NCBI RefSeq assembly: GCF_017313105.1
Contig: NZ_JAFLND010000003.1
Location: 372,001-436,000, forward strand
Source: [Muricauda] lutisoli (nom. illeg.)
GTDB lineage: Bacteria; Bacteroidota; Bacteroidia; Flavobacteriales; Flavobacteriaceae
Direction: 5' to 3'
Length of the DNA: 64,000 nt
Below are positions 5,854 through 23,013 of the stretch, in pieces (position 1 is the stretch's first letter; every line of letters begins with the position of its first letter). The notes under the pieces were generated by a model, which saw only the letters and a program-made list of their open reading frames with translations, searched no databases and was not told the origin of the DNA. The position numbers were made by a program, and so were the translations under genes.

Positions 5854-7218
5854 ATGAAAAAGGTTTTATACCGCCATCTATTTTCTAAAGTTTTAGGTTT
5901 AACTCTCCTATTATTCTCCACATCTTTTTATGCGCAGGAAGAAGCCGCGGCTACAACCGACGCTGCTACTGAGCAAACAGCAGAGGCTGTTGGGGGAGAT
6001 CCGGTAAAAGGAAAACAACTGTTTAATCAGAACTGTGCCGCATGTCATGCCTTGGATAGGAAAATGACGGGGCCTGCATTGGCTAATGTGGAAACTAGAT
6101 TGGCCGAGGATGAAGGGTTGGATAAAGAATGGATTTACGCATGGGTGAAAAACAGTCCTGGTGTAATTTCTTCCGGGGATGCTTATGCAAACAAAATTTA
6201 CGATGAGTACAATCAGGCGGCGATGACGCCTTTTCCGACATTGTCCAACGAGGATATAGATGATATTTTGGCCTACACGGCTGCTCCGCCTCCGGCTCCG
6301 GCTGCCACAACAGCTACTGCCCCTGCTGGTGAATCTGCAGGTCCAAGCTCTGGGATTTCCAATGATATGATTCTTGGGGCACTGGCTTTGGTGTTTGGGC
6401 TTTTGGTCATCATGTTGATCTTGGTGAACAAGACTTTGCGCAGAATTGCCGAGGCAAACGGGGTAGTATTGGAAAAAGAAAAAGAAAAGCGTTTACCCAT
6501 TTGGAAGGCTTTTGTTCAAAATCAGTTCTTGGTTTTGGTGAGCGTTGTTTTCTTGTTGCTGGCCAGTGCATATTTTGCTTATGGATATTTAATGCAGGTT
6601 GGTGTTGATCAAGGTTATGCACCTGTTCAGCCGATTCACTACTCGCACAAAATTCACGCAGGGGACAATGGTATTGAGTGTAAGTACTGTCACTCTTCTG
6701 CAAGAGTGTCCAAGCATTCCGGGATACCGTCGTTAAATGTTTGTATGAACTGTCATAAGTCCATTTATGAATATACCGGTAATCCAGAAGGACCATCTGC
6801 CGAAGACTTGGCCAACGGATACACCAATGAATTCTACACAGGAGAAATAAAGAAATTGTACAAGGCCGTTGGATGGGACGAGGAAAATCAAAGCTATACT
6901 GGTGAGACACAACCGGTAGAGTGGGTTAGGATCCATAATCTCCCTGATTTTGCGTATTTCAACCACTCACAGCACGTATCTGTTGCTGGTGTTGAGTGTC
7001 AAACATGTCACGGTCCGGTTGAAGAAATGGAAATCATGTATCAGCATGCTCCTTTGACCATGGGATGGTGTATCAATTGCCACCGTGAAACCAATGTTAA
7101 GGTTCAGGGCAATGAATACTATGAGGCAATTCACGAGGAGTTGTCCAAAAAGTATGGTGTTGAGGAATTGACTGCTGCAATGATGGGTGGTCTAGAGTGT
7201 GGAAAGTGTCACTATTAA
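5854..7218 (+). CDS. actA: Alternative complex III subunit A, hexahaem cytochrome c
   Basis: ActA is the multihaem c-type cytochrome of alternative complex III, the quinol:electron-acceptor oxidoreductase that replaces bc1. The 454 residues contain a signal peptide, a class-I-like monohaem domain (CAACH at 61-65), an Ala/Pro/Thr-rich linker, membrane helices at about 172-192 and 224-246, then five haem motifs: CKYCH 276, CMNCH 297, CQTCH 382, CINCH 406, CGKCH 449. The C-terminal part is the classic pentahaem ActA; the N-terminal haem domain makes six. It opens a tight operon whose order actABCDEF-coxBA places it directly with its electron-accepting oxidase. Confidence 0.93.
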   Translation: MKKVLYRHLFSKVLGLTLLLFSTSFYAQEEAAATTDAATEQTAEAVGGDPVKGKQLFNQNCAACHALDRKMTGPALANVETRLAEDEGLDKEWIYAWVKNSPGVISSGDAYANKIYDEYNQAAMTPFPTLSNEDIDDILAYTAAPPPAPAATTATAPAGESAGPSSGISNDMILGALALVFGLLVIMLILVNKTLRRIAEANGVVLEKEKEKRLPIWKAFVQNQFLVLVSVVFLLLASAYFAYGYLMQVGVDQGYAPVQPIHYSHKIHAGDNGIECKYCHSSARVSKHSGIPSLNVCMNCHKSIYEYTGNPEGPSAEDLANGYTNEFYTGEIKKLYKAVGWDEENQSYTGETQPVEWVRIHNLPDFAYFNHSQHVSVAGVECQTCHGPVEEMEIMYQHAPLTMGWCINCHRETNVKVQGNEYYEAIHEELSKKYGVEELTAAMMGGLECGKCHY

Positions 7219-7250
7219 GAATTAAAAGAAGATAATCTCAGATATATCGT

Positions 7251-10200
7251 ATGGCATCAAACAAAAAATATTGGAAAAGTGAAGCGGAGTTGAATCCGAA
7301 CGATTCCATTGTTGAGGCGCTAAGAAACAACGAGTTTACCGAAGAGATTCCCGTTGATGAATTTTTGGGCGACAAGGAAAACCTGTCATCCTCGAACACA
7401 TCCCGTCGGGATTTCTTGAAATATGTAGGTTTCAGTACTGCGGCAGCTACGGTTGCGGCGTGCGAAGGCCCGGTTCACAAATCTATTCCATATGTAGTTC
7501 AGCCGGACAACATTGTTCCCGGTGTTGCCAACTACTACGCAACTACCATTGCCGATGGTTTTGATTTTGCCAGTATCTTGGTGAAGACCAGGGAAGGAAG
7601 GCCTATCAAAATTGAAAACAATACCGATGCAAAAGTAAATGGCGGAGCCAATGCGAGAGTGCAGGCGTCCGTACTGACTTTGTACGATAGTAAAAGGGTT
7701 CAAGGTCCAATGGCCAACGGGGAACCTGTGGAGTGGAAGGTGTTGGATGCTACCGTAAAGGCGAAATTGAATGCTTTGAAAGGTTCCAACAAACAAGTGG
7801 TGTTGTTGACCCAGACTTATGCTAGTCCATCAACCACGAAATTAATATCTGAGTTTAAGGCGGCTTATGGAGACAATGTGAACCATGTGGTTTATGATGC
7901 CATTTCCGAGGATGCCGCAATAAATGCATACAACAAGGCTTACGGTGAACGTGCCTTGGCCGATTACGATTTTGAGAAAGCAGAGCTTATCGTTTCTTTC
8001 GGTGCCGATTTTCTTGGTGACTGGCAAGGTGGTGGATATGATTCCGGTTATGCCAGGGGTCGTGTTCCCAAGAATGGAAAAATGTCCAGACACGTACAGT
8101 TGGAGTCCAATATGTCCTTGACCGGTGCCAATGCCGATAAGAGATACCCGATGACCCCTACCCAACAAAAGATCGCCCTTGCCAAATTGTACGGCAAATT
8201 GAACGGCAGTAGTGTTGGTGGAGGTACGTCCGATGTGGATGAAGCTGTTGACAGGGTAGCTGCTGAAATCAAAAAGGCCGGTAGCAAAGCAGTTGTTGTT
8301 AGTGGTCTTAACGATGAAAATGCACAAACAGTGGTTTTGGCCATCAACAAATTGTTGGCCAGTGAGGCGTTTGATCCAGAAAAGCCAAAATATGTGCGCC
8401 AAGGAGATGCTGCAAAAGTAAGTAAGTTGATCGCTGATATGAATGCAGGTCGAGTTGGAGCATTGATCATGGATGGTGTTAACCCAGCTTATACATTACC
8501 AAATGCCGAAGAATTCCTTTCTGGACTCGAGCAGGTAGATGTGTCGGTAGACTTTGCTTATACCAATGATGAAACTGCGCAAGCCTCTAATTATGTGGCG
8601 GCCGCTTCACATTATTTGGAGTCTTGGGGTGATGCCCAATTTAAAAAAGGACAATACAGCTTGATGCAACCCGCTATTCGAGAGTTGTTTGATACAAAGC
8701 AGTTTCAAACAGCGCTTTTAACGTGGATGGGCGTCGAGAAAACATATTACGAATACATCAAAGAAACTTGGAGTGTGGATATACTTCAAGGTGGCTCTTG
8801 GAACAAAGCATTGCAAGATGGTGTTTATGTAGCACCTGCAATGATGGTTGATGATGCCGAGGCAACTACCGCTCAGGAAGATTCGCAAGAAGAGCAGCCA
8901 GAAATTGTTCCGATCGCGTCTGCAGTACGTTCTTTGGTGAATGCAACTAGCTCGGGCACCGAATTGGTGTTGTACTCTAAAGTGGGTATGGGAGATGGTC
9001 GTCAGGCCAACAACCCATGGTTGCAAGAGTTCCCAGACCCAATTTCCAGAGTATCTTGGGATAACTACGTAACTGTATCCAAAGCGGATGCAGAGTCCTG
9101 GGGACTTGAAAATACAATCGAAGCCGATGGTGGAGTTAATGGTAGCTACGTAAAATTGACCGTTGATGGCAAGGTGTTGGAAAATGTGCCGGTCATCATT
9201 CAACCAGGTCAGGCAGTAGGTACTGTAGGTCTGTCTTTCGGTTATGGAAAGAAAGCTGGAATGCAGGAGGAGATGGCAACTGGTGTCAATGCCTATACTT
9301 TGTATAGCAACTTCTCCGATGTGCAATCCGTAACCGTTGAAAAATCGGGCGGAGAACACGAGTTTGCTTGTATCCAGTCACATAAAACATTAATGGGTAG
9401 GGGGGATATCATCAAGGAAACTACCTTGGAAATCTTCAATACCAAAGACCATGAAGAGTGGAATCCAATGCCTCATGTGTCTTTGAATCACAACGAAATA
9501 CCAGTGACTTCACCAGATGCCGACCTTTGGGAGGAATTTGACAGAAGCATTGGACATCATTTTAACCTATCCATCGATTTGAATGCTTGTACCGGTTGCG
9601 GTGCTTGTGTTATCGCATGTCATGCAGAGAACAACGTTCCTGTTGTAGGAAAACGTGAAATGCGTCGTTCAAGGGATATGCACTGGTTGCGTATCGATAG
9701 GTATTATTCTTCCGAGGAGACCTTTGAAGAGGATAACGAGAAGAAAGAAGAAATGGAAGGTCTTTGGGGAGATAAAGGTTCCCTTGGAGGTTTCAGGGAG
9801 ATGGAAGACCCATCTGCGAACCCGCAAGTAGCCTTTCAGCCTGTAATGTGTCAACACTGTAACCATGCGCCTTGTGAGACTGTTTGTCCTGTAGCTGCTA
9901 CATCTCACAGTAGACAGGGCCAAAATCACATGGCTTACAACAGATGTGTGGGTACTAGATATTGTGCCAATAACTGTCCATATAAAGTTCGTAGGTTCAA
10001 CTGGTTCTTGTACAGTAACAATGACGAGTTTGACTTTAATATGAACAACGATTTGGGTAAAATGGTGATTAACCCAGATGTTAATGTGCGTTCAAGAGGT
10101 GTTATGGAGAAATGCTCTATGTGTATCCAAATGACTCAGAAAACCATTTTGGATGCCAAGAGAGATGGAAGGGTTATCAAGGATGGTGAGTTCCAGACCG

Positions 10201-10373
10201 CTTGTTCTGCAGCTTGTAGCAGTGGGGCTATGGTGTTTGGTGACATCAATGATCATGACAGTAAAGTAGCGGAGTTGAAAGAGGATGATAGAATGTACCA
10301 TTTGTTGGAGCATGTAGGCACTAAACCAAACGTGTTCTATCATGTTAAAGTTAGAAACACCAACGAGGCTTAA
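7251..10373 (+). CDS. actB: Alternative complex III subunit B, molybdopterin-oxidoreductase-like iron-sulfur protein
   Basis: This 1040-residue fusion holds a molybdopterin-oxidoreductase-like N-terminal part (which in ActB proteins carries no molybdenum cofactor) and a four-cluster ferredoxin C-terminal part. The internal twin-arginine-type signal SRRDFLKYVGF, about 50 residues from the N-terminus and followed by TVAAC, fits the Tat-variant lipoprotein signal of ActB. Ferredoxin motifs start at C780 (CTGCGAC...C) and near residue 867 (CQHCNHAPC), followed by CVGTRYCANNCP and CSMC...CSAAC. One motif is atypical (C-VGTRY-C), as expected for the 3Fe-4S site. It acts at the periplasmic face, between ActA and the NrfD-like subunits. 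Confidence 0.95.
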   Translation: MASNKKYWKSEAELNPNDSIVEALRNNEFTEEIPVDEFLGDKENLSSSNTSRRDFLKYVGFSTAAATVAACEGPVHKSIPYVVQPDNIVPGVANYYATTIADGFDFASILVKTREGRPIKIENNTDAKVNGGANARVQASVLTLYDSKRVQGPMANGEPVEWKVLDATVKAKLNALKGSNKQVVLLTQTYASPSTTKLISEFKAAYGDNVNHVVYDAISEDAAINAYNKAYGERALADYDFEKAELIVSFGADFLGDWQGGGYDSGYARGRVPKNGKMSRHVQLESNMSLTGANADKRYPMTPTQQKIALAKLYGKLNGSSVGGGTSDVDEAVDRVAAEIKKAGSKAVVVSGLNDENAQTVVLAINKLLASEAFDPEKPKYVRQGDAAKVSKLIADMNAGRVGALIMDGVNPAYTLPNAEEFLSGLEQVDVSVDFAYTNDETAQASNYVAAASHYLESWGDAQFKKGQYSLMQPAIRELFDTKQFQTALLTWMGVEKTYYEYIKETWSVDILQGGSWNKALQDGVYVAPAMMVDDAEATTAQEDSQEEQPEIVPIASAVRSLVNATSSGTELVLYSKVGMGDGRQANNPWLQEFPDPISRVSWDNYVTVSKADAESWGLENTIEADGGVNGSYVKLTVDGKVLENVPVIIQPGQAVGTVGLSFGYGKKAGMQEEMATGVNAYTLYSNFSDVQSVTVEKSGGEHEFACIQSHKTLMGRGDIIKETTLEIFNTKDHEEWNPMPHVSLNHNEIPVTSPDADLWEEFDRSIGHHFNLSIDLNACTGCGACVIACHAENNVPVVGKREMRRSRDMHWLRIDRYYSSEETFEEDNEKKEEMEGLWGDKGSLGGFREMEDPSANPQVAFQPVMCQHCNHAPCETVCPVAATSHSRQGQNHMAYNRCVGTRYCANNCPYKVRRFNWFLYSNNDEFDFNMNNDLGKMVINPDVNVRSRGVMEKCSMCIQMTQKTILDAKRDGRVIKDGEFQTACSAACSSGAMVFGDINDHDSKVAELKEDDRMYHLLEHVGTKPNVFYHVKVRNTNEA

Positions 10374-10406
10374 TCAATAAAAAAAGAAGTAACTAGAAGA
10401 TAAATT

Positions 10407-12125
10407 ATGGCGTCGCATTACGAAGCACCTATTCGAAAGCCCTTAGTGGTCGGAGACAAAGGATACCACGATGTAACAGTGGACATTGCCCGTCCGGTTG
10501 AGGGAAAGGCCAATAAACAATGGTGGATTGTATTTTCCATTGCATTAGTGGCATTCCTCTGGGGTCTAGGATGTATCATTTATACCGTTTCCACAGGTAT
10601 TGGGGTTTGGGGTCTTAACCGAACCGTTAACTGGGCCTGGGATATCACCAACTTTGTATGGTGGGTAGGTATTGGTCACGCAGGTACACTGATTTCAGCT
10701 GTACTCTTGCTTTTCCGTCAAAAATGGAGAATGGCGATCAACCGTTCTGCTGAGGCGATGACCATTTTCTCGGTAGTACAGGCAGGTTTGTTCCCTATTA
10801 TTCACATGGGTCGTCCATGGTTGGGTTACTGGGTACTTCCAATCCCTAACCAATTTGGTTCTCTTTGGGTGAACTTCAACTCACCTTTGCTTTGGGACGT
10901 TTTTGCGATTTCAACCTATCTTTCCGTGTCATTGGTTTTCTGGTGGACAGGTCTTTTGCCTGACTTTGCCATGATTCGTGATAGGGCCGTAAAACCTTTC
11001 CAAAAGAAAATATACAGCATTCTAAGTTTTGGATGGACAGGAAGGGCAAAGGATTGGCAACGATTTGAGGAAGTTTCTTTGGTACTGGCCGGTTTGGCTA
11101 CACCTTTGGTGCTTTCTGTACACACCATCGTATCTTTTGACTTTGCTACCTCGGTAATTCCTGGATGGCACACCACCATTTTCCCACCATACTTTGTTGC
11201 TGGTGCGATTTTCTCTGGATTTGCCATGGTGAACACACTTTTGATCATTATGCGTAAGGTGTGTAGCTTGGAAGCTTATATTACCGTACAGCATATCGAA
11301 TTGATGAACATTGTAATCATGATTACCGGTTCTATCGTTGGATGTGCCTATATCACCGAGTTGTTTATTGCGTGGTACTCTGGAGTTGAGTATGAACAAT
11401 ATGCTTTCTTGAACAGGGCTACTGGTCCTTACTGGTGGGCATACTGGTCCATGATGACCTGTAACGTGTTCTCACCACAATTTATGTGGTTCAAGAAACT
11501 GCGAACCAGTATCATGTTCTCCTTCTTTATCTCTATCGTGGTAAACATAGGAATGTGGTTCGAGCGTTTCGTTATTATCGTTACCTCATTGCATAGGGAT
11601 TACTTGCCATCTTCTTGGACAATGTTCTCCCCAACTTTTGTTGATATCGGAATATTTGTGGGAACCATAGGATTCTTCTTCGTATTGTTCCTGTTGTATT
11701 CCAGAACATTCCCGGTAATTGCACAGGCAGAAGTGAAATCCATTTTGAAAGCTTCTGGTGAGAAATACAAAAAATTGAGGGAAGCTGGTAAACCATTGTA
11801 CGAAATGCCTGAGGCAAAAGGTGAAACCAAGGTGGAAGAGGCTCCAAAAGTTGATACAAGTCATGAGCATGTGTCCACACTGCTGGAGGCAATTGGAACT
11901 TTTGATGCTGAAACGGAAACTGCTGACGATTTGAAAAAAGTCAAGGGTATTGGTCCTCAAATGGAACAGGCCCTGAACCAGATAGGTATTTATACGTTCG
12001 CTCAGGTGAGCAGAATGACCGAAAAAGAATATAACTTGTTGGATTCTATCACAGGTTCTTTCCCAGGAAGGGCACAACGTGATGATTGGGCAGGTCAGGC
12101 TAAAAAATTAAACGAAGAAAAATAA
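10407..12125 (+). CDS. actC: Alternative complex III subunit C, NrfD-like, with C-terminal helix-hairpin-helix tail
   Basis: ActC is an NrfD/PsrC-type integral membrane quinol-binding subunit. Hydrophobic helices fill residues about 35-435, with the usual Trp/His-rich loops (VGIGHAGTLISA, RQKWRMAINRSAEAMTIF). After the last helix comes a charged linker and then a domain at about 507-565 (DDLKKVKGIGPQMEQALNQIGI, then TFAQVSRMTEKEYNLL). This is a helix-hairpin-helix-like module of the sort seen on some ribosomal L21 and DNA-binding proteins. At 572 residues the protein is about 100 longer than a plain ActC because of this tail. The gene ends 2 bases before actD. Confidence 0.92.
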   Translation: MASHYEAPIRKPLVVGDKGYHDVTVDIARPVEGKANKQWWIVFSIALVAFLWGLGCIIYTVSTGIGVWGLNRTVNWAWDITNFVWWVGIGHAGTLISAVLLLFRQKWRMAINRSAEAMTIFSVVQAGLFPIIHMGRPWLGYWVLPIPNQFGSLWVNFNSPLLWDVFAISTYLSVSLVFWWTGLLPDFAMIRDRAVKPFQKKIYSILSFGWTGRAKDWQRFEEVSLVLAGLATPLVLSVHTIVSFDFATSVIPGWHTTIFPPYFVAGAIFSGFAMVNTLLIIMRKVCSLEAYITVQHIELMNIVIMITGSIVGCAYITELFIAWYSGVEYEQYAFLNRATGPYWWAYWSMMTCNVFSPQFMWFKKLRTSIMFSFFISIVVNIGMWFERFVIIVTSLHRDYLPSSWTMFSPTFVDIGIFVGTIGFFFVLFLLYSRTFPVIAQAEVKSILKASGEKYKKLREAGKPLYEMPEAKGETKVEEAPKVDTSHEHVSTLLEAIGTFDAETETADDLKKVKGIGPQMEQALNQIGIYTFAQVSRMTEKEYNLLDSITGSFPGRAQRDDWAGQAKKLNEEK

Positions 12126-12127
12126 TT

Positions 12128-12655
12128 ATGGCATCAAAAGTTATACAAGCACTTTACAACGATGACGATGTGTTGATGCATGCTGTAAAAAAGGTTAGGG
12201 CAGAGCACCACCATATTGAAGAGGTGTACACTCCGTTTCCCGTTCACGGTCTGGATAAGGCAATGGGCTTAGCGGATACCCGAATAGCTATCACCTCTTT
12301 CCTTTATGGATGTTTGGGGTTAACGGTTGCCATAGTTATGATGAATTATATCATGATTGAGGATTGGCCACAGGATATTGGTGGTAAGCCAAGTTTTAGT
12401 TATTTGGAAAACATGCCGGCCTTTGTTCCTATCATGTTCGAGCTTACGGTTTTCTTTGCAGCTCACTTGATGGTTATTACCTTTTACTTAAGAAGTAGAA
12501 TGTGGCCTTTCAAGAAAGCCGAAAACCCGGATAAACGTACTACCGACGACCATTTTTTGATGGAGTTAGGTGTGCATGATAACGAAAATGAACTTGCCGA
12601 TTTGTTGTGGGAAACAGGTGCGGTAGAAGTAAAAGTTACAGAAAAGGAGTCTTAA
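12128..12655 (+). CDS. actD: Alternative complex III subunit D (DUF3341)
   Basis: This 175-residue protein of the DUF3341 family has a soluble N-terminal part with the family hallmark YTPFPVHGLDKAMGL, two transmembrane helices (about 55-78 and 98-122), and a charged C-terminus. ActD is a small membrane subunit of alternative complex III without cofactors. It lies 2 bases after actC and 4 bases before actE, so it is translationally coupled. Confidence 0.92.
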   Translation: MASKVIQALYNDDDVLMHAVKKVRAEHHHIEEVYTPFPVHGLDKAMGLADTRIAITSFLYGCLGLTVAIVMMNYIMIEDWPQDIGGKPSFSYLENMPAFVPIMFELTVFFAAHLMVITFYLRSRMWPFKKAENPDKRTTDDHFLMELGVHDNENELADLLWETGAVEVKVTEKES

Positions 12656-12659
12656 TAAT

Positions 12660-13229
12660 ATGAAACAATTAGGTAAAATAAGTGTTGTTTTGGTCTTAAT
12701 GATATTCGCTGCCTCTTGCGCGGATAAGAACAGTCCAAACTACCAATTCATGCCAAACATGTACGAACCTGTAGGATATGAGGCCTATCAAGGTGTGGAC
12801 AATGGGTTGTTCCCAGATGGAACGGAAGCCTTGTTGCCCCCGGAAGGGACCATAAACAGAGGATACATGCCCTATGAGTTCGAAAACACTCCGGAAGGTA
12901 AAGAATTAGCAAGAATGAACACCAGCCCTTTGGATTCGTTGAACCAAGAGGAAAACCTGGCAAAAGGAGCCGAACTTTACGGAGTTTACTGTGCCATATG
13001 CCATGGTTCTAAAGGAGATGGTCAAGGAAATCTTGTGAAAAGAGAAAAAATATTGGGTGTTCCCAGCTACGACGATGCAGCTAGAAACATTACTGTTGGA
13101 ACTACATACCACACTATTTATTATGGTTTGAACTCTATGGGGTCTTATGCCTCTCAGTTTGCCAATGAAAAAGAAATGTGGCAAGTATCCGAATATGTGA
13201 TGAAATTAAAGGAAGACCTAACAAAATAA
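12660..13229 (+). CDS. actE: Alternative complex III subunit E, monohaem cytochrome c lipoprotein
   Basis: ActE is the monohaem cytochrome c subunit that hands electrons on from ActA. The 189 residues start with a lipoprotein signal (lipobox AASC, Cys20). A single haem motif CAICH sits at 111-115 and a C-terminal GTTYHTIYYGLNSMGSYAS segment contains the probable Met ligand. The lipid anchor would hold it on the periplasmic face of the complex. It sits between actD and actF. Confidence 0.93.
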   Translation: MKQLGKISVVLVLMIFAASCADKNSPNYQFMPNMYEPVGYEAYQGVDNGLFPDGTEALLPPEGTINRGYMPYEFENTPEGKELARMNTSPLDSLNQEENLAKGAELYGVYCAICHGSKGDGQGNLVKREKILGVPSYDDAARNITVGTTYHTIYYGLNSMGSYASQFANEKEMWQVSEYVMKLKEDLTK

Positions 13230-13246
13230 TAGGATAAGAATAAACT

Positions 13247-14581
13247 ATGTATACCTTTTCAAACAAACTTAGAATAGGATCTTTCATAGCCATGGGGCTT
13301 GGAGTTATTTTCTTGGCAATTGGATTTTTGTCAGCTCCTTCGACAGTGGAAGAAGCCAAGGCCATGGTGGCAGCACATGATGATGGTCATGGTGGAGGGC
13401 ATGCAGAAGCGGCCGAAACTCATGGCGAAGAACAAGGTCACGGTGCAGAAGCCGCACATGGTGAAGAGCACGATGCTTCCCATGACACACATTTGTTGCA
13501 CCAATTACAGAACAGACCTTGGTCTGCTCTTTACGTAGCCGCATTCTTTTTCTTTATGATCGCTTTGGGCGTGTTGGCATTTTATGCCGTACAACGTGCT
13601 GCCCAAGCCGGTTGGTCCCCCTTATTGTTTAGGGTAATGGAAGGGATCACCGCTTACCTGGTCCCAGGAGGGATTATTGTATTCGTGATTTTATTGCTGT
13701 CCACATTGCACATGAACCATATGTTTGTTTGGATGGATGCCGAAACCGTAGCACATGACGAATTATTGCAAGGAAAAGCGGGTTATTTAAATCCAACTTT
13801 CTTTTTGATCAGGGCTGCCATATTCTTGGGCGGATGGATTTTCTATCGTCAATACTCTAGAAAATTGTCCCTGGCACAAGACGAGTCCGACGACAACAGT
13901 AATTTTGTCAAAAACTTTAGATGGTCAGCGGCCTTCTTGGTGTTTTACTTAATTTCTGAATCCATGATGTCGTGGGATTGGATAATGAGCTTGGACCCAC
14001 ACTGGTTCAGTACACTATTTGGATGGTATGTGTTCGCGAGTATGTTTGTTTCTGGTATTACCGTTATTGCCATGGTTACCGTATACCTGAAATCAAAAGG
14101 ATATTTGGAGCAAGTCAATGACAGCCATGTTCACGATTTGGCCAAGTTCATGTTCGGTATTAGTATATTCTGGACATACCTGTGGTTCTCACAGTTTATG
14201 TTGATATGGTACGCTGATATTCCGGAAGAAGTAACGTATTATATAGCGCGTTTTCAAGATTATAAATTACCGTTCTTTGGGATGTTGGTCATGAACTTTG
14301 TTTTCCCATTGTTGGTACTTATGAACAGTGATTACAAAAGGGTGAACTGGTTTGTTATCATGACCGGTATTGTGGTTCTTTTAGGCCACTATTTGGATAT
14401 ATTTAATATGGTGATGCCTGCAACGGTTGGTGATCAATGGTACATTGGCTTACCAGAGATTGGTGGTATTTTATTCTTTGGAGGTTTATTTGTGTTCTGG
14501 GTGTTTACTGCTTTGACAAAAGCCCCATTACAACCCAAAAGAAACCCATTTATTGAGGAAAGTAGACATTTTCATTATTAA
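13247..14581 (+). CDS. actF: Alternative complex III subunit F, NrfD-like
   Basis: This 444-residue polytopic membrane protein is the second NrfD-like subunit of alternative complex III, lacking the quinol site of ActC in characterised complexes. A first helix (about 10-30) is followed by a loop at about 42-88 that is very rich in His, Glu, Ala and Gly (ten histidines), then roughly nine further helices including LVPGGIIVFVILLLSTLHMNHMFVW. It is the last act gene, 28 bases before coxB. The His-rich loop may bind metal or buffer protons; this is speculation. Confidence 0.92.
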   Translation: MYTFSNKLRIGSFIAMGLGVIFLAIGFLSAPSTVEEAKAMVAAHDDGHGGGHAEAAETHGEEQGHGAEAAHGEEHDASHDTHLLHQLQNRPWSALYVAAFFFFMIALGVLAFYAVQRAAQAGWSPLLFRVMEGITAYLVPGGIIVFVILLLSTLHMNHMFVWMDAETVAHDELLQGKAGYLNPTFFLIRAAIFLGGWIFYRQYSRKLSLAQDESDDNSNFVKNFRWSAAFLVFYLISESMMSWDWIMSLDPHWFSTLFGWYVFASMFVSGITVIAMVTVYLKSKGYLEQVNDSHVHDLAKFMFGISIFWTYLWFSQFMLIWYADIPEEVTYYIARFQDYKLPFFGMLVMNFVFPLLVLMNSDYKRVNWFVIMTGIVVLLGHYLDIFNMVMPATVGDQWYIGLPEIGGILFFGGLFVFWVFTALTKAPLQPKRNPFIEESRHFHY

Positions 14582-14609
14582 TACGATTTAAGTCTTAGAT
14601 AGATAAACG

Positions 14610-15740
14610 ATGACTGCATTTTTAACATTAGCTGTTTTAGTATTAGTTGCGATTGCTATTTGGCAGATGACCAAGATTTTTGAATTATCGCAAACTAAAA
14701 CAGAAAAGGCTGAGATAGCGAACGATTCCGACAACAAGAACAATGGTTACCTATTATTTATGTTCTTGATCTTCATTTATGGAATCACGATTTTCAGTTT
14801 TGTGAAATATGGCAAAGCCTTGTTGCCGGAAGCTGCTTCCGAACATGGTGGTGAATACGACCAGTTGATGTTGGTTTCCATGGGAATTATATTCTTTGTG
14901 CAAACTGTGACCCAGGCACTCTTACATTACTTCGGTTATAAGTACAGAGGCCAAAAAGGAAGAAAAGCATTGTTTTTTGCAGATAATGACAGGTTGGAAT
15001 TTATCTGGACGATTATCCCGGTAATTGTATTGGCAGGTTTGATCCTTTGGGGATTGTATACTTGGACCAATATCATGGATGTCAACGAAGACGATGATCC
15101 ATTGGTTGTTGAACTTTACGCACAACAATTTAACTGGACGGCAAGATATGGTGGGGAAGATAACGTATTAGGGGATGCCAACGTTAGGTTAATCGATATC
15201 GGGAGCGCCAATGTACTTGGTTTGGATGAGTCCGATCCCAATTCTGAAGATGATATCATTGTTAAGGAATTGCATTTGCCTGTAGGTAGAAAAATAAACT
15301 TTAAAATGAGGTCCCAAGATGTTTTGCACTCCGCATACATGCCCCACTTTAGAGCCCAGATGAACTGTGTTCCAGGAATGATTACCCAGTTTTCTTTTAC
15401 TCCGACAGTTACAACAGAGGAAATGCGCCTGAATCCGGATGTTGTTGACAAAGTAAAGCGGACCAATGCCCTTAGGGCCGAGTGGGCAGCAGAAGGAAGA
15501 CCTAATTCTGAACCATGGGAGTTTGATTACGTTTTGTTGTGTAATAAAATATGCGGAAAATCACACTATAATATGCAGATGAAGATTATAGTGGAAACCG
15601 AAGAAGAGTTCAATAAATGGCTTGCAGAACAAAAGTCGTTTAAAGAAACCGTGATGGTCGATGAAACGGTAGAAGAGGAGCAAGCATTCAACACGGAAGA
15701 TGGTGTTGATATTGAAGAAGAAGTAGCTTCGGAAGAATAA
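14610..15740 (+). CDS. coxB: Cytochrome c oxidase subunit II
   Basis: Subunit II accepts electrons at its CuA centre and passes them to subunit I. The CuA motif CNKICGKSHYNM is complete (C311, C315, H319, M322), with the upstream His in LHSAYMPHFRAQM. The 376 residues contain four N-terminal hydrophobic segments (about 1-20, 47-68, 88-112, 128-150) instead of the usual two; the first pair is an extension. No haem c motif is present, so this is not a caa3-type fusion. The last 35 residues are strongly acidic. It lies between actF and coxA, suggesting a complex III-oxidase supercomplex. Confidence 0.95.
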   Translation: MTAFLTLAVLVLVAIAIWQMTKIFELSQTKTEKAEIANDSDNKNNGYLLFMFLIFIYGITIFSFVKYGKALLPEAASEHGGEYDQLMLVSMGIIFFVQTVTQALLHYFGYKYRGQKGRKALFFADNDRLEFIWTIIPVIVLAGLILWGLYTWTNIMDVNEDDDPLVVELYAQQFNWTARYGGEDNVLGDANVRLIDIGSANVLGLDESDPNSEDDIIVKELHLPVGRKINFKMRSQDVLHSAYMPHFRAQMNCVPGMITQFSFTPTVTTEEMRLNPDVVDKVKRTNALRAEWAAEGRPNSEPWEFDYVLLCNKICGKSHYNMQMKIIVETEEEFNKWLAEQKSFKETVMVDETVEEEQAFNTEDGVDIEEEVASEE

Positions 15741-15777
15741 CAAATAAAAAAGATTAACGAAAAAAACTAATTGGAAT

Positions 15778-17601
15778 ATGTCTGAAGTAGCCCATGTAAG
15801 TCACGATGATCACCACGATGATCACGGACATCACCATAAGGAAACTTTCATAACAAAATATATTTTCAGTCAGGACCATAAGATGATAGCCAAGCAATAT
15901 CTCATCACTGGTCTGATTATGGGATTCATAGGTATAGCCATGTCACTGCTATTTAGAATGCAATTGGCTTGGCCGGGCGAATCCTTTGCAATTTTTGAAA
16001 CCGTTTTGGGCAAGTGGGCACCGGATGGTGTAATGGATGCCGACATCTATCTGGCTTTGGTTACCATTCATGGTACACTAATGGTTTTCTTCGTTTTAAC
16101 TGCAGGACTGAGTGGTACTTTTAGTAACCTATTGATTCCATTGCAAATTGGGGCCAGGGATATGGCCTCTGGATTTTTGAACATGGTTTCTTATTGGTTG
16201 TTTTTCATTTCATCGGCCATAATGGTGAGCAGTTTGTTTGTTGAAGCAGGACCAGCTGCCGCAGGATGGACCATTTACCCGCCATTGAGTGCATTGCCGA
16301 TGGCGCAGCCAGGTTCTGGTTTGGGTATGACACTTTGGTTGGTATCCATGGCCATATTTATCGCTTCCTCTTTGTTGGGGTCTTTGAACTACATTGTTAC
16401 GGTAATCAACCTTAGAACAAAAGGAATGTCCATGACACGTTTGCCATTGACCATCTGGGCGTTTTTTGTGACAGCAATTATTGGGGTGATTTCTTTCCCC
16501 GTATTGCTTTCAGCAGCTTTGTTATTGATCATGGATAGAAGTTTTGGAACATCATTCTTCTTATCGGATATCTTTATCCAAGGTGAAGTGCTACATTATC
16601 AAGGAGGTTCACCGGTTTTGTATGAGCACTTATTCTGGTTCTTGGGCCACCCAGAGGTATATATCGTATTGTTGCCGGCTTTGGGTATTACATCCGAAGT
16701 AATGTCAACAAATGCAAGAAAACCGATTTTTGGATATAGGGCGATGGTAGCATCTATTTTGGCCATTGCGTTTCTATCTACAATTGTATGGGGTCACCAC
16801 ATGTTCGTATCAGGTATGAACCCGTTCTTGGGATCTGTATTTACCTTTACAACACTATTGATAGCCATCCCGTCAGCGGTAAAGGCATTTAACTATATCA
16901 CTACACTCTGGAAAGGTAACCTGCAGCTGAACCCTGCTATGTTGTTCTCCATTGGTTTGGTATCAACATTTATTACTGGAGGTCTTACAGGAATCATTTT
17001 GGGTGATAGTACTTTGGATATCAATGTTCACGATACATACTTCGTTGTTGCCCACTTCCACTTGGTAATGGGAATATCGGCACTTTACGGACTTTTTGCC
17101 GGGGTTTATCACTGGTTCCCAAAAATGTTCCAAGGACGCATGATGAACAAGAACTTGGGTTATGTACACTTCTGGATAACCGCAGTCTGTGCTTATGGGG
17201 TATTCTTCCCAATGCACTTTGTGGGAATGGCAGGGGTGCCACGTCGTTACTATGAGAACACCGCGTTCCCAATGTTCGATGAGTTGACGAACGTTCAGGT
17301 ATTGATGACCGTATTTGCAATTATTGCAGGTTTGGCACAGCTGATATTCGTTTACAACTTCATTTCAAGTATCTTCTACGGTAAAAGAGGACCTGTAAAC
17401 CCATGGGGTTCCAATACATTGGAATGGACAACTCCACAAAAGCATATACACGGAAACTGGCCTGGAGCAATTCCACATGTTTACCGTTGGGCCTACGATT
17501 ACAGTAAAACTTACGAGAATGGTGAGTACATTATTGCAGGACAGGATTTTGTTCCGCAAAACGTTCCGCTTCAGGAGAACGAAGAAGAACTCAACCATTA
17601 G
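15778..17601 (+). CDS. coxA: Cytochrome c oxidase subunit I
   Basis: The catalytic subunit reduces oxygen at the haem a3-CuB centre and pumps protons. Its 607 residues include the helix II haem ligand (ATIHGTLMVFF-like VTIHGTLMVFF), the CuB histidine and cross-linked tyrosine motif HPEVY, the HH pair in WGHHMFVSG, and the haem a3/a His pair in VVAHFHLVMG. The first 21 residues hold eight histidines mixed with aspartates, a cytosolic extension before the first helix. It is the last gene of the act-cox operon; a hairpin terminator follows. Subunits III and IV are encoded 20 kb downstream. Confidence 0.97.
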   Translation: MSEVAHVSHDDHHDDHGHHHKETFITKYIFSQDHKMIAKQYLITGLIMGFIGIAMSLLFRMQLAWPGESFAIFETVLGKWAPDGVMDADIYLALVTIHGTLMVFFVLTAGLSGTFSNLLIPLQIGARDMASGFLNMVSYWLFFISSAIMVSSLFVEAGPAAAGWTIYPPLSALPMAQPGSGLGMTLWLVSMAIFIASSLLGSLNYIVTVINLRTKGMSMTRLPLTIWAFFVTAIIGVISFPVLLSAALLLIMDRSFGTSFFLSDIFIQGEVLHYQGGSPVLYEHLFWFLGHPEVYIVLLPALGITSEVMSTNARKPIFGYRAMVASILAIAFLSTIVWGHHMFVSGMNPFLGSVFTFTTLLIAIPSAVKAFNYITTLWKGNLQLNPAMLFSIGLVSTFITGGLTGIILGDSTLDINVHDTYFVVAHFHLVMGISALYGLFAGVYHWFPKMFQGRMMNKNLGYVHFWITAVCAYGVFFPMHFVGMAGVPRRYYENTAFPMFDELTNVQVLMTVFAIIAGLAQLIFVYNFISSIFYGKRGPVNPWGSNTLEWTTPQKHIHGNWPGAIPHVYRWAYDYSKTYENGEYIIAGQDFVPQNVPLQENEEELNH

Positions 17602-18601: not shown

Positions 18602-19624
18602 ATGAACGAAAACTTAGATCCATCAGCCGAGAATTTCTCTCCTGAAGAGCTCGATATAGAAAGAGCTTTACGTCCCATCAGTTTCGATGACTTTACTGGG
18701 CAGGAACAAGTATTGGAAAACCTGAAGGTCTTTGTGCAGGCAGCTAACTTAAGGGGGGAGGCCTTAGATCACACCCTTTTTCACGGACCTCCAGGTTTGG
18801 GTAAAACTACCTTGGCCCATATTTTGGCCAACGAACTTGGAGTAAATATAAAAGTTACATCCGGCCCTGTACTGGATAAACCAGGGGATCTAGCTGGATT
18901 GTTGACCAATCTGGAAGAGCGTGATGTACTTTTTATAGATGAGATACATAGGTTGAGTCCCATTGTTGAGGAGTATCTGTACTCCGCTATGGAGGACTAT
19001 AAAATTGATATTATGATTGAGACGGGCCCCAATGCCCGCTCCGTACAAATAAATTTAAGTCCGTTTACACTGGTAGGGGCAACCACTAGGTCCGGTCTGC
19101 TCACGGCACCCATGCGTGCCAGATTTGGTATTCAAAGTCGATTGGAATATTACCATACCGAACTATTGTCTACAATAGTGGAGCGCAGTGCAGATATTCT
19201 TCAAGTACCCATCACCAACGATGCAGCTATAGAAATTGCCGGACGTAGCAGGGGTACGCCTAGGATATGCAATGCCCTTTTGCGCAGAGTACGGGATTTT
19301 GCACAGATAAAGGGCACTGGAAATATTGACCTTGAAATTTCTCAATTTGGACTTAAAGCCTTGAATGTGGATGCCCATGGACTGGACGAAATGGATAACA
19401 AAATCTTAAGTACCATTATAGATAAATTCAAAGGAGGTCCTGTGGGTATAACCACCTTGGCGACCGCCGTATCCGAAAGTGCCGAAACCATTGAAGAGGT
19501 TTATGAACCATTCTTGATTCAGCAAGGTTTTATAATGCGTACCCCAAGGGGAAGGGAAGTGACCGAACTTGCTTACAAACATTTGGGCAGGGTAAAAGGA
19601 GGAACACAAGGAGGACTTTTCTAA
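18602..19624 (+). CDS. ruvB: Holliday junction branch migration ATPase RuvB
   Basis: RuvB is the AAA+ motor that drives Holliday junction migration with RuvA. The 340 residues show Walker A GPPGLGKT (62-69), Walker B LFIDEIH (DEIH at 113-116), sensor 1 GATTRSG, the arginine-finger region APMRARFG, and the C-terminal winged helix ([17 protein letters not shown]). Length is normal. Its partner ruvA lies 7 kb downstream next to sprA and not beside it, as is common outside Proteobacteria. Confidence 0.98.
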
Positions 19625-19856: not shown

Positions 19857-20939
19857 ATGGGGGATAACCTTAAAAACTCAGGAACATCCGAAATGGATGA
19901 TGTTCAGCTTGTCACTGGTCAAATACGTAAATTGGTTATGTATATCGGAATTTTTTCAGCATTGATGATCGTAATTGCCTTTGGTATTATGATGTCTCGC
20001 TTCGGATTTAATTTTGGCAATGTCGACAAAGGGTTTGCCTCAATTCCGGACGGAGTGTACTACATGGATTACAATGTGGGCAACTTACCTTTGACCGAAA
20101 AAAACATACTTGTAAAAAAGGGATTTGACATTTTCAGAAATACACCATTGCACATTGGTCCTAAACAAAAGGATTCATCACAGATATATGCGGGCAACAA
20201 CCTTGCCTGTGCAAGTTGCCATTTAGATGGAGGTACCAAGCCCTATGCGGCACCGTTGATTGGAGTGGTCAAAAGATTTCCGCAGTTTAGAGGACGCGAG
20301 AATAAAATCGGAACTATTCAGGAAAGAATCAATGGATGTATGGAGCGCAGTATGAACGGAAGAAAATTGCCGGAAAACAGTGATGCAATGGAAGCAATGG
20401 TTGCTTATATGGATTGGTTGGGCCGTGCCGCGCCATCAAACGGAAAAATAGAAGGACAAGGATTTTTAAAAGTAGATCTCCCGGAAAGAGCGGTTGATTT
20501 GGCCCATGGGGAAAGTGTATATGAAAAACATTGCGTAATCTGTCATGGCTCCGATGGGCAAGGCCAGCGTTTACCACAGAACGACTTATATCTTTACCCA
20601 CCACTCTGGGGAAACGATTCTTATAACAACGGAGCTGGTATGACACGTGTGATTACCGCCGCCCAATTCATCAAAGGAAACATGCCTTTTGGTATCACCT
20701 TTGATAACCCTACACTTACCGATGAAGAGGCTTACGACGTAGCAGGCTACATCAACCAAAAATTAAGGCCAACAAAGTCTAACAGAGAAAAAGACTTCCC
20801 CGACCTGGTTAAAAAACCAGTTTCTACCCCCTACGGTCCATATGTGGACCCATTCTCTCCCGAACAGCACCAATTAGGTCCGTTCCAACCTATTATGGAT
20901 TACTACCAAAAGGAACATCAACTGCGTAAAACCAAATAA
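19857..20939 (+). CDS. TsdA-like dihaem cytochrome c
   Basis: This 360-residue protein has one N-terminal membrane helix (about 28-46) and two class-I cytochrome c domains with haem motifs CASCH (118-122) and CVICH (226-230). Between them, GTIQERINGCMERSMNGR carries Cys161 in the position where thiosulfate dehydrogenase TsdA uses a cysteine as axial ligand of its active-site haem; Met276 (FIKGNMPFG) fits as ligand of the second haem. The closest characterised function is thiosulfate oxidation to tetrathionate, or the reverse; the substrate here is inferred. The two following DsrE-like genes strengthen a sulfur role. No thiosulfate-specific regulator is adjacent. Confidence 0.75.
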   Translation: MGDNLKNSGTSEMDDVQLVTGQIRKLVMYIGIFSALMIVIAFGIMMSRFGFNFGNVDKGFASIPDGVYYMDYNVGNLPLTEKNILVKKGFDIFRNTPLHIGPKQKDSSQIYAGNNLACASCHLDGGTKPYAAPLIGVVKRFPQFRGRENKIGTIQERINGCMERSMNGRKLPENSDAMEAMVAYMDWLGRAAPSNGKIEGQGFLKVDLPERAVDLAHGESVYEKHCVICHGSDGQGQRLPQNDLYLYPPLWGNDSYNNGAGMTRVITAAQFIKGNMPFGITFDNPTLTDEEAYDVAGYINQKLRPTKSNREKDFPDLVKKPVSTPYGPYVDPFSPEQHQLGPFQPIMDYYQKEHQLRKTK

Positions 20940-20951
20940 ACAAACGTGACA

Positions 20952-21635
20952 ATGAAAACAACAGAGACAACATCAAGACGAAATTTTATGGGAGCTGTGA
21001 TGCTGGGTGCCACTGCATCCACATTATCGGCTTTTACAAATCCCGTATTCGCGGGAATGACGGATTTTACCGATTCAGAAATGAACGATGCTGAATCTTG
21101 GATGAAAACAATCAAGGGAAAACATAGGGTGGTATACGATGGATCTTACCCACATCATGGGTTCCCAATAATTTGGAACTGGGCCTATTATTTGTCCAAC
21201 AACGAGATGGGATCACCAGATGATGAAGTTACGGCAATGACCGTTTTAAGGCACGATGCCATACCATTTGCACTTCATTCCGACCTTTGGAAAAAATATC
21301 CCTTAGGCGAAATGTTCCATGTAAAAACAGCCGATGGCGCTATATATGACAGAAACCCATATTACGAACCACAAGAAGGAGATTTTCCTATGCCGGTAAT
21401 CCAAGGTATTAAAGACATGATGGGACGTGGAGCCATGTTCTGTGTCTGTAACCTTGCTCTGCAAGTGTATAGCGGTGCGGCCGCTCAACAAATGGGAAAA
21501 GATGCAGGTGAAGTGTATGAAGAATGGAAAGAAGCCGTATTGCCCGGAATTCAAATAGTACCTTCTGGAGTCTGGGCATTGGGAAGAGCCCAAGAAGAAG
21601 GCTGTGGATACATTTTCGCGGGAAACACCATTTGA
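20952..21635 (+). CDS. Exported DsrE-like protein with Tat-type signal
   Basis: The ATG at 20952 gives 227 residues (a GTG two codons earlier is also open). The N-terminus has a twin-arginine signal (TSRRNFMGAVMLGATAS) and cleavage near VFAGM, implying folded export to the periplasm. The mature part ends with the DsrE-family pattern: FCVCNLAL with two cysteines (about 164 and 166), LPGIQIVPSGVWALGRAQEEGCGYIF with a third. DsrE/Tus proteins carry sulfane sulfur as a cysteine persulfide. Characterised DsrE proteins are cytoplasmic, so a Tat-exported form is unusual. It lies 12 bases after the TsdA-like gene and 2 bases before the next DsrE gene. Confidence 0.72.
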   Translation: MKTTETTSRRNFMGAVMLGATASTLSAFTNPVFAGMTDFTDSEMNDAESWMKTIKGKHRVVYDGSYPHHGFPIIWNWAYYLSNNEMGSPDDEVTAMTVLRHDAIPFALHSDLWKKYPLGEMFHVKTADGAIYDRNPYYEPQEGDFPMPVIQGIKDMMGRGAMFCVCNLALQVYSGAAAQQMGKDAGEVYEEWKEAVLPGIQIVPSGVWALGRAQEEGCGYIFAGNTI

Positions 21636-21637
21636 AC

Positions 21638-22048
21638 ATGAAAAACCTCATCTTAAGTTTACTGTTATTGGTGTCAGGATTAACATTGGCACAGAGCGAA
21701 CCCATCAAAGTAGTGTTTGATGTAACCAGCAGTAATCCCGATGTGCACAGGACCGCTGCCAAACATTTAAGATTAATGGCGGAGGCATATCCAGATTCTG
21801 AGTTTGAACTGGTGGTCTACAGCGGAGCAATAAAAATGGTGGACAGAAAATCATCCGCTGCCGGGGAAACTTTGGAAGAAGTGGTCAAAAGGGATAATGT
21901 TTCCGTAGTAGTTTGTGCACAGACCATGAAAAGGCACGAAATGGAAATGGATGACCTTATTCCTGGTATAAGATCTGTCCCAGACGGTATTTTTGAAATT
22001 GTGATGCTCCAAAAAAAAGGATGGGGCTATATCAAGGAAGTGAATTGA
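21638..22048 (+). CDS. Exported DsrE-family protein
   Basis: The ATG at 21638 follows the previous stop by 2 bases and starts a signal peptide (MKNLILSLLLLVSGLTLAQ), giving 136 residues; an earlier in-frame ATG at 21524 would overlap the upstream gene by over 100 bases and lose the signal. The mature domain is a compact DsrE fold: IKVVFDVTSSNPDVHR, FELVVYSGAIKMV, VSVVVCAQTMKRHEM with Cys93 at the persulfide position, then DLIPGIRSVPDGIFEIVMLQKKGWGYI. A periplasmic sulfane-sulfur carrier is the simplest reading. It completes the three-gene cassette with the dihaem cytochrome. Confidence 0.8.
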   Translation: MKNLILSLLLLVSGLTLAQSEPIKVVFDVTSSNPDVHRTAAKHLRLMAEAYPDSEFELVVYSGAIKMVDRKSSAAGETLEEVVKRDNVSVVVCAQTMKRHEMEMDDLIPGIRSVPDGIFEIVMLQKKGWGYIKEVN

Positions 22049-22092: not shown

Positions 22093-23013
22093 GTGAATGC
22101 CGAAGATCATACACAGTTGATAAAAACCGAGGCCAAGCGTCTCGGTTTTTTGTCGTGTGGTATCTCCAAAGCCGAATTTTTGGAAGAGGAAGCTCCACGT
22201 TTGGAAAAGTGGCTTAACCAAAAAATGCATGGGGAAATGCAGTACATGGAAAACCATTTTGATAAGCGGCTGGACCCCACAAAATTGGTGGAAGGCTCAA
22301 AGTCGGTAATATCACTCTTGTTGAATTACTTCCCCTCTGAAGAACAAAACCAAGATTCCTATAAGATTTCCAAATATGCCTACGGAATGGATTATCACTT
22401 TGTGATAAAGGACAAGCTCAAAGATTTACTTCATTTTATCCAAGAGGAAATCGGTGAGGTTCACGGAAGGGCTTTTGTGGATTCCGCTCCTGTGTTGGAT
22501 AAGGCCTGGGCTGCGAAAAGTGGTCTGGGATGGATTGGGAAGAACAGTAATTTGCTTACCCAACAAGTGGGGTCCTATTACTTTATTGCGGAGTTGATCG
22601 TAGATCTGGAGCTAAAATATGATACACCTGTTACAGATCATTGCGGTACATGTACTGCTTGTATCGATGCCTGTCCCACAGATGCCATTGTGCAACCTTA
22701 TGTGGTAGACGGCAGTAAATGTATTTCTTACCTTACCATAGAATTAAAGAATGAGATTCCATCCGAATTTGAAGGAAAATTGGATGATTGGATGTTTGGC
22801 TGTGATGTTTGTCAGGATGTTTGTCCTTGGAATCGATTTTCAAAATCTCACAATGAGCCCTTGTTCAATCCAAATCCGGAACTGTTATCATTTAGTAAAA
22901 AAGATTGGGAGGAAATCACGGAAGATGTCTTTAAGAAAGTTTTCAAAAAGTCAGCGGTAAAACGAACAAAACTATCCGGTCTAAAACGAAATATTGATTT
23001 TTTGAAAAAATAG
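22093..23013 (+). CDS. queG: Epoxyqueuosine reductase QueG
   Basis: QueG catalyses the last step of queuosine tRNA modification using cobalamin and two 4Fe-4S clusters. Starting at a GTG (22093), the 306 residues contain the DUF1730 N-terminal domain, the catalytic Asp130 in [14 protein letters not shown], the [11 protein letters not shown] motif, and cysteine sets C184/C187/C190/C194 ([12 protein letters not shown]) and C210/C237/C240/C244 ([10 protein letters not shown]). The C-terminal HEAT-like extension of some homologues is absent, giving the shorter form. It stands alone between the sulfur cassette and the transporter gene. Confidence 0.95.

Follow-up and report, generated by a model that had tools for sequence, protein, structure and literature searches.

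A TsdA-type cytochrome and two apparently exported DsrE-fold proteins in Bacteroidota form a candidate periplasmic thiosulfate/tetrathionate redox module

What might two apparently exported DsrE-fold proteins do beside a cytochrome of the thiosulfate dehydrogenase family TsdA? The question is raised by a cassette at positions 19857-22048 of a 64,000-nucleotide stretch from [Muricauda] lutisoli (assembly GCF_017313105.1, contig NZ_JAFLND010000003.1, positions 372,001 to 436,000; hereafter the window). Three abutting plus-strand open reading frames (ORFs) encode a TsdA-type cytochrome, a protein with a twin-arginine translocation (Tat) signal and a DsrE protein with a Sec-type signal, with 12 bases between the TsdA stop and the ATG of the Tat protein and 2 bases between the Tat stop and the Sec DsrE gene; an ORF check bore out the coordinates and the spacing of 2-12 bases given by a first-pass annotation made from the letters of the window. 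We lean, without pressing it, towards a periplasmic thiosulfate/tetrathionate redox module in which cysteines of the DsrE fold would exchange thiosulfonate with TsdA, a chemistry that we infer. The first two genes belong together, as their distribution shows. The features are as follows (all on the plus strand).

19857..20939, + strand: TsdA-family dihaem cytochrome c, 360 amino acids, with a predicted N-terminal membrane anchor (phmmer, PF21342, model)
19932..19988, + strand: predicted transmembrane anchor of the cytochrome, residues 26-44 (hydropathy 2.56; helix 12-49 in the model)
20337..20339, + strand: Cys161 codon, predicted axial ligand of haem 1 and thiosulfonate-forming cysteine (TsdA alignment, 62/62 rows; role from PMC4423706)
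20952..21635, + strand: predicted Tat-exported DsrE-fold protein, 227 amino acids, remote NF052225 homologue (profile and fold match)
20976..20981, + strand: twin arginines of the predicted Tat signal (79/82 rows)
21447..21449, + strand: DsrE-position cysteine of the Tat protein, C166 from ATG 20952, equal to C167 from 20949 (sole cysteine common to NF052225)
21603..21605, + strand: C-terminal GC cysteine of the Tat protein, C219 from 20949 (Bacteroidota rows only, 81/82)
21638..22048, + strand: predicted Sec-exported DsrE protein, 136 amino acids (PF02635, 2PD2, hydrophobic N-terminus)
21914..21916, + strand: Cys93, the only conserved cysteine of the Sec DsrE protein (60/60 rows)

By alignment and model, the first gene encodes a TsdA with an apparently intact active site. 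Its product matches Allochromatium vinosum TsdA (4WQC) in phmmer (E 1.5e-51) and the family PF21342 (SoxA-TsdA; 43.9 bits, cut-off 27), with two cytochrome c families likewise above their cut-offs; it carries two CxxCH haem motifs (C118/C121/H122 and C226/C229/H230) and is 98% identical to the TsdA of Allomuricauda profundi (L090). In A. vinosum TsdA, Cys123 is the haem ligand and the thiosulfonate site, and Arg109, Arg119, Ser127 and Arg224 belong to the active site (PMC4423706, the source of the A. vinosum numbering; this and the other papers cited are represented here by excerpts). C161 of the window protein is the gapless alignment partner of that cysteine ligand. When counted from the Cys and Met ligands, R147, R157, C161, S165 and R264 correspond to Arg109, Arg119, Cys123, Ser127 and Arg224, and each of them is present in all 62 aligned sequences. 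The haem-free AlphaFold2 model (predicted local distance difference test, pLDDT, 86; input of 30 window and locus sequences) superposes on TsdA 4V2K with Z 26.0 (root-mean-square deviation, rmsd, 2.1; 231 residues aligned), and SoxAX chains come next at Z 7.5-11.6. The most hydrophobic stretch comprises residues 26-44 (mean 2.56 in a 19-residue Kyte-Doolittle window), within a model helix of residues 12-49, and the cytochrome is therefore probably membrane-anchored. The membrane-anchored dihaem cytochrome with a TsdA-type Cys161 that had been proposed at first is thus upheld by motifs, hydrophobic stretch, fold and an invariant cysteine, with coordination of the haem as a prediction, the model containing none. 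Fold, haem sites, cysteine ligand and the Arg/Arg/Ser/Arg set are those of TsdA and TsdBA from A. vinosum (4V2K, 4WQ7), Marichromatium purpuratum (5LO9) and Campylobacter jejuni; unlike these systems, the cassette has an N-terminal anchor on the cytochrome, lacks a TsdB gene and adds a predicted Tat-exported DsrE-fold partner, usually together with an exported DsrE protein.

The second gene appears, from sequence and model, to encode a Tat-signal protein of DsrE fold with one ancestral cysteine and homology to NF052225. Translation from the ATG at 20952 (M in 80/82 rows; GTG at 20946 is an alternative start in frame) to the stop at 21635 gives a protein with the Tat motif SRRNF, the arginines of which are kept in 79/82 rows. 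We rejected it as an ordinary Pfam DsrE protein because PF02635 was not matched: neither the window protein nor any of the 7 rows of an alignment with its six relatives hit a Pfam DsrE family at E <= 1, and the sole Pfam match of the window protein was a weak one to TM_PetC. Its model (pLDDT 84, input of 45 sequences) superposes on 2PD2 with Z 13.1 and rmsd 1.7, and 107 of the 166 residues spanned align, which leaves about 60 inserted residues. The ten rows of highest Z (9.1-13.2) comprised DsrE/DsrF, DsrEFH, TusBCD and YchN chains, a designed cage and small proteins with uncharacterised titles; after 2PD2 came MTH1491, YchN, a DsrEFH chain and others at Z 9.1-12.0, the next row being at 5.1. 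The entries 2PD2, 1L1S and 2FB6 are titled as of unknown function or hypothetical, and we take them to share the DsrE fold. Of the Tat-exported DsrE-like protein described in the first-pass annotation, the Tat motif and the fold therefore stand, whereas membership of the Pfam DsrE family does not, the nearest named family being NF052225. Its CVC and C-terminal GC cysteines are each kept in 81/82 rows, as had been expected, but across the wider family (an alignment of 15 rows) only the second cysteine of CVC is retained (15/15): the first is missing in L008 and five proteobacterial rows, and the GC cysteine in 5/5 proteobacterial rows.

Comparison of profiles makes the Tat protein a remote homologue of the non-haem thiosulfate dehydrogenase family NF052225 (NCBIfam, 'thiosulfate dehydrogenase'), a relationship that is new here. 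The window protein matches the model at E 0.024; for its six relatives E ranges from 0.0052 to 5.2e-11 (best 42.4 bits), so that all 7 rows of their alignment match. Five proteobacterial relatives score far higher (four at 373.7-420.6 bits, a short fifth at 285). In hhalign, 45 Bacteroidota-type Tat sequences aligned with 12 proteobacterial NF052225 sequences over 208 columns (E 7.6e-10, probability 96.5), and C167 (counted from 20949), the DsrE-position cysteine, fell on C202; it is the only cysteine invariant in both sets. Pairwise identity between the two kinds in the wider-family alignment is 17-24%. The alignment of exported DsrE proteins matched both the Bacteroidota-type set (E 1.3e-5, probability 80.6, 57 columns) and the NF052225 set (E 4e-5, probability 70, 60 columns), from which we infer that the NF052225 enzymes are DsrE-fold proteins too.

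By model name and synteny, NF052225 is probably the type of the Acidithiobacillus thiosulfate dehydrogenase (TSD; AFE_0042). An earlier annotation gave AFE_0042 a Tat signal, with a solute-binding protein and doxDA encoded after it (PMC2754497); the excerpt of PMC6335251 describes a protein of about 25 kDa that reduces neither ubiquinone nor horse cytochrome c. The same paper lists its structure and mechanism as open in 2019, and in a review of 2024 the electron acceptor appears as a '?' (PMC10859504). The NF052225-type loci of Kozakia and Acetobacter have the order Tat protein, substrate-binding protein and annotated DoxD, as for AFE_0042. The predicted Tat signal, the size of about 25 kDa, the homology over 208 profile columns, the one invariant cysteine and the co-encoding with TsdA or DoxD are common to the NF052225 proteins and the cassette protein, which differs in its extra C-terminal GC cysteine, its gene order and its Bacteroidota host.

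The third gene encodes, to judge from its sequence, a DsrE protein (PF02635 at 34.2 bits, cut-off 22.7; 2PD2 at E 3.9e-11) with a signal-like, hydrophobic N-terminus (best window residues 5-23, mean 1.55) and a single conserved cysteine, C93 (60/60 rows), in line with the Sec-exported protein first described. The conservation of the DsrE-position cysteines, on which the first-pass annotation had made its reading depend, thus holds in both proteins (81/82 rows in the Tat protein). Fold and cysteine position agree with DsrE/DsrF (PF02635; 2PD2, MTH1491, DsrEFH, DsrE3A) in both, but the cassette proteins are apparently exported rather than cytoplasmic, and the Tat protein has its insertions and no Pfam DsrE match. 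In L061 and L077, the Tat gene is followed by a tandem pair of genes for exported DsrE proteins; by reading, SQR-like (sulfide:quinone oxidoreductase), rhodanese-like and MBL (metallo-beta-lactamase)/persulfide-dioxygenase-like genes lie close to them in L061. Elsewhere in the genome of the cassette, another apparently exported PF02635 protein (L001:1495-2040, G000:C1 near 950037) resembles by eye the DsrE subtype found near TsdA in Acetobacter and Paraburkholderia, and a flavoprotein (weak sulfide-dehydrogenase-type match), a DsrC-like and a DsrE2-like protein are encoded in a row (L003, G000:C1 near 215432).

How regularly do these genes keep company? Among 296 Bacteroidota genomes, the Tat protein was found in 7 (E <= 1e-3) and TsdA in 34 (E <= 1e-15). 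All 7 lie among the 34 (hypergeometric 1.5e-7, kinship not corrected), with the two genes as neighbours in 5 and on separate contigs in the other two (G099, G150). In G099, the Tat gene (L009) stands beside an ORF read as a pyrroloquinoline quinone (PQQ)-type dehydrogenase, not beside TsdA. A scan of species genomes gave 333 relatives, of which the best 80 by similarity to L005 were fetched, a set that is not a random sample and overlaps the 296 genomes in apparently one genome (G150 = L011). The order TsdA-Tat-DsrE on one strand occurs in 50 of these 80 loci, so the co-occurrence elsewhere that the first-pass annotation had asked about is found. The remaining loci comprise 9 with TsdA-Tat and no DsrE, 5 with Tat-DsrE and no TsdA, 2 rearranged and 14 with neither partner, two of these 14 having short upstream flanks. 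TsdA is nearby in 61/80 loci, and among the 19 others all 17 genomes searched encode it elsewhere (L072 and L078 being the two outside the search); every testable Bacteroidota genome with the Tat protein thus also has TsdA. Genes for exported DsrE proteins are missing nearby in 23/80 loci, and 4 of the 19 such genomes searched have a homologue elsewhere (E <= 1e-5, window protein as query), encoded right beside TsdA in all four. TsdA and the Tat protein are a steady pair, to which the exported DsrE protein is a common and optional addition. In four genomes (L148-L151), an exported DsrE gene and TsdA form a two-gene unit of their own, with the Tat gene elsewhere.

Such proximity could also be that of two unconnected thiosulfate dehydrogenases, neighbours only through their common substrate. 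Co-location of iso-functional genes is common, and NF052225 does bear the name of thiosulfate dehydrogenase; yet no testable Bacteroidota genome among those examined has the Tat protein without TsdA, and the purified Acidithiobacillus TSD could use neither horse cytochrome c nor ubiquinone as acceptor (PMC6335251, in excerpt), and we regard this explanation as highly improbable.

In a TsdA tree of 70 rows (the window, 63 of 100 locus sequences and six proteobacterial sequences; the duplicates L122 and L134 were left out together with roughly two thirds of L024-L090, and the root is not known), Tat-adjacent TsdAs fall on three Bacteroidota branches, namely the main cassette clade (26 rows), L007/L008/L010 and L022/L023, with a fourth, proteobacterial branch apart. 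Beside the main clade lies a single row whose genome has no Tat protein. The label 'adjacent' requires 3 changes on the Bacteroidota tree against a shuffled mean of 23.3, L022 and L023 being counted as adjacent with their TsdA 2.4 and 0.6 kb off on the other strand. The tree fits either repeated pairing of TsdA with the Tat protein or a pairing that is old and was lost in places.

The pair is also met outside the Bacteroidota. In tblastn searches of plasmids, the Tat protein of the window gave no match and that of L011 gave 13 records at E <= 1, its plasmid relatives being mostly annotated as 'transcriptional initiation protein Tat' (one of the 13, L097, an archaeal DsrE protein, was left out of the NF052225 counts). 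Among 72,556 plasmid records, 51 carry TsdA (E <= 1e-20, with a query from an NF052225 locus, which favours TsdAs of that kind), 24 an NF052225-type gene and 15 both; the overlap of 15/24 (hypergeometric 7e-43, a value inflated by near-identical plasmids, six of them from Paraburkholderia) spans 7 of 12 genera. From the 24 plasmids, 14 NF052225-type loci were fetched. TsdA lies within the flank in 8 of them, seven by hmmsearch (182-216 bits) and one in Bosea, where the gene directly upstream of the Tat gene encodes a TsdBA fusion (match to 5LO9 at 3.7e-127); 2 of the 14 have an annotated DoxD. On an Acetobacter ascendens plasmid, the gene for a DsrE protein with a signal-like N-terminus is followed by those for two substrate-binding proteins, for a cytochrome c matched over two stretches, for TsdA and for subunits of a cbb3-type oxidase, with tsd-sbp-doxD at a separate site, so that, by their sequences, counterparts of all three partners recur in another phylum and in another order. 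In Paraburkholderia and Caballeronia, the DsrE proteins showed no clear signal peptide. A more divergent NF052225-type group, possibly of other function, is formed by L095, L105 and L106 (Novosphingobium, Rhizobium), with a serine hydrolase adjoining (by reading in L105).

These relatives bear on the direction of the reaction, on which the residues around haem 2 may bear as well. The cytochrome has K273-x-N275-M276 there (62/62 rows), matching Lys252/Asn254/Met255 of the tetrathionate reductase TsdA of Campylobacter (PMC5146829), and the module might accordingly be thought to run backwards for the most part, reducing or scavenging tetrathionate. The Marichromatium TsdBA chain 5LO9, however, also has this N-M pair, which is thus not shown to be diagnostic, for which reason we set the haem 2 residues aside as proof of that direction; in the proteobacterial relatives TsdA leads into cbb3-type oxidase genes that follow it, and the window genome has an aerobic-looking set of alternative complex III (ACIII) and oxidase genes (by reading). 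A mainly reductive module is, on this balance, distinctly unlikely.

For the favoured module, in which TsdA and the DsrE-fold cysteines would exchange thiosulfonate, the following steps can be proposed. As in the published chemistry of the A. vinosum enzyme, TsdA would bind thiosulfate oxidatively on Cys161, forming an S-thiosulfonate. The Tat protein would exchange this thiosulfonate group through its DsrE-position cysteine, delivering thiosulfate or removing the product, and could pass the group on to Cys93 of the third protein; and the two electrons taken by TsdA would travel through c-type cytochromes to a terminal oxidase. The TSD family as a whole might then act as thiol partner to a distinct redox unit that makes tetrathionate, be it TsdA or DoxD according to the organism; this would explain why purified TSD reduces neither ubiquinone nor cytochrome c. 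Relatives offer precedents: TsdA forms a Cys S-thiosulfonate, SoxAX joins thiosulfate to the cysteine of a carrier protein (PMC4423706), and DsrE3A of Metallosphaera takes tetrathionate as a reactant and hands thiosulfate on to TusA (PMC4175335).

The first-pass annotation had seen instead a periplasmic system oxidising or repairing sulfane sulfur, with persulfide carried by the exported DsrE proteins and the cytochrome as oxidant. It has in its favour that both are DsrE-fold proteins with the DsrE-position cysteine, and that SQR-like, rhodanese-like and persulfide-dioxygenase-like genes (by reading) surround L061, L022, L023, L148 and L149, such neighbours being annotated in Bosea and in part in Paraburkholderia. 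Against it, the thiosulfate catalytic residues of TsdA are intact in 62/62 rows, the family nearest to the Tat protein is named for thiosulfate dehydrogenase, and the DsrE3A precedent took tetrathionate and not persulfide donors, being unreactive with sulfide, persulfide, polysulfide, thiosulfate and sulfite (PMC4175335, in excerpt). The periplasmic sulfur redox role is retained, therefore, and sulfane-sulfur oxidation or repair is unlikely; thiosulfate/tetrathionate and thiosulfonate chemistry appears better founded because the predicted catalytic residues of TsdA are intact.

A variant closer to Sox is possible and somewhat doubtful, namely a carrier pathway without SoxYZ in which TsdA would couple thiosulfate to the Tat-protein cysteine, rather than to a second thiosulfate, and the carrier thiosulfonate would then move to the exported DsrE protein; TSD would likewise be no free-standing dehydrogenase but a DsrE-fold carrier or thiol subunit with TsdA(B) or DoxDA as redox partner. 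TsdA belongs to the SoxA family, and the transfer from SoxAX to a carrier cysteine is a functional analogy to TsdA and a DsrE cysteine; unlike in SoxAX-SoxYZ, the proposed carriers have the DsrE fold, and the best SoxB match in the window genome (240.8 bits) falls short of the cut-off of 550. A SoxY search of that genome gave no match, the control genomes being equally silent.

Several points weigh against the favoured module of TsdA and thiosulfonate-exchanging DsrE-fold proteins, or against parts of it. With 14.0 bits against a curated NF052225 cut-off of 300, the window Tat protein is a homologue and not a member; the equation of NF052225 with the Acidithiobacillus TSD is based on the NCBI name and synteny, and the Kozakia 'DoxD' (64.7 bits) is below its own NCBIfam cut-off of 300. 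Foldseek, for which 2PD2 was the best match of the Tat model (E 1.4e-3, probability 1.00), returned nothing at E <= 0.001. DsrE3A is, in the excerpt of PMC4175335, unreactive with thiosulfate itself. Four of the 14 NF052225 loci (L095, L100, L105, L106) have neither TsdA nor DoxD nearby, with DoxD taken from annotation, which L099, L101 and L105 do not carry, and with a weak cytochrome match (20 bits) in L106. Genome-wide, 15 of the 19 searched genomes without a local Sec DsrE gene have none at E <= 1e-5, so the DsrE protein is optional, and TsdA can do without the Tat protein, which is missing from 27 of the 34 genomes that encode TsdA. This dependence is one-way, and the Tat protein would therefore modify rather than enable TsdA.

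The same asymmetry, in which the Tat protein comes with TsdA and not the reverse, would suit maintenance partners, the Tat and DsrE proteins clearing the TsdA cysteine of persulfide or thiosulfonate formed off the pathway. The TsdA thiosulfonate does decay to Cys-S-sulfane (PMC4423706). The NF052225 relatives are, however, named as enzymes and are also found beside annotated DoxD, and such a housekeeping role seems to us very unlikely. DoxD is, to our knowledge, not a TsdA homologue.

Turning to the surroundings of the cassette, ruvB (18602-19624, by reading) lies upstream and a queG-like gene (22093-23013, QueG Pfam match) downstream, while ACIII-like and oxidase genes occupy 5854-17601 (named by reading the ORFs). 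Within the fetched flanks, homologues of ruvB and queG border the cassette in few loci (e.g., L075, L080, L084, L087, L088 and L090), which are Maribacter- or Muricauda-like where named; other contexts are found elsewhere. The passage of electrons to the ACIII/oxidase chain next door, as first suggested, is not borne out by gene order: cox genes occur in only three of the 80 loci (L087, L088 and L090; flanks of up to 8 kb, some shorter). We therefore rejected the neighbourhood as part of the system, the adjacency being local to one clade. A promoter and terminator scan remained at chance level.

The impression of the first-pass annotation that no system of exactly this form has been described agrees with the open-access literature (subscription papers are mostly outside it): among the matches listed, none describes the cassette, a DsrE fold for TSD or a pairing of TSD with TsdA, and none links 'transcriptional initiation protein Tat' with thiosulfate. 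If the link to NF052225 is true, the cassette would assign the TSD family a fold and a candidate catalytic cysteine, would point to a genomic partner for it in two phyla and would supply proteins from non-acidophiles for testing the TSD-TsdA pair. The Flavobacteriaceae, Cyclobacteriaceae and Flammeovirgaceae in question are usually regarded as plain heterotrophs; the cassette points to thiosulfate/tetrathionate metabolism in many of them.

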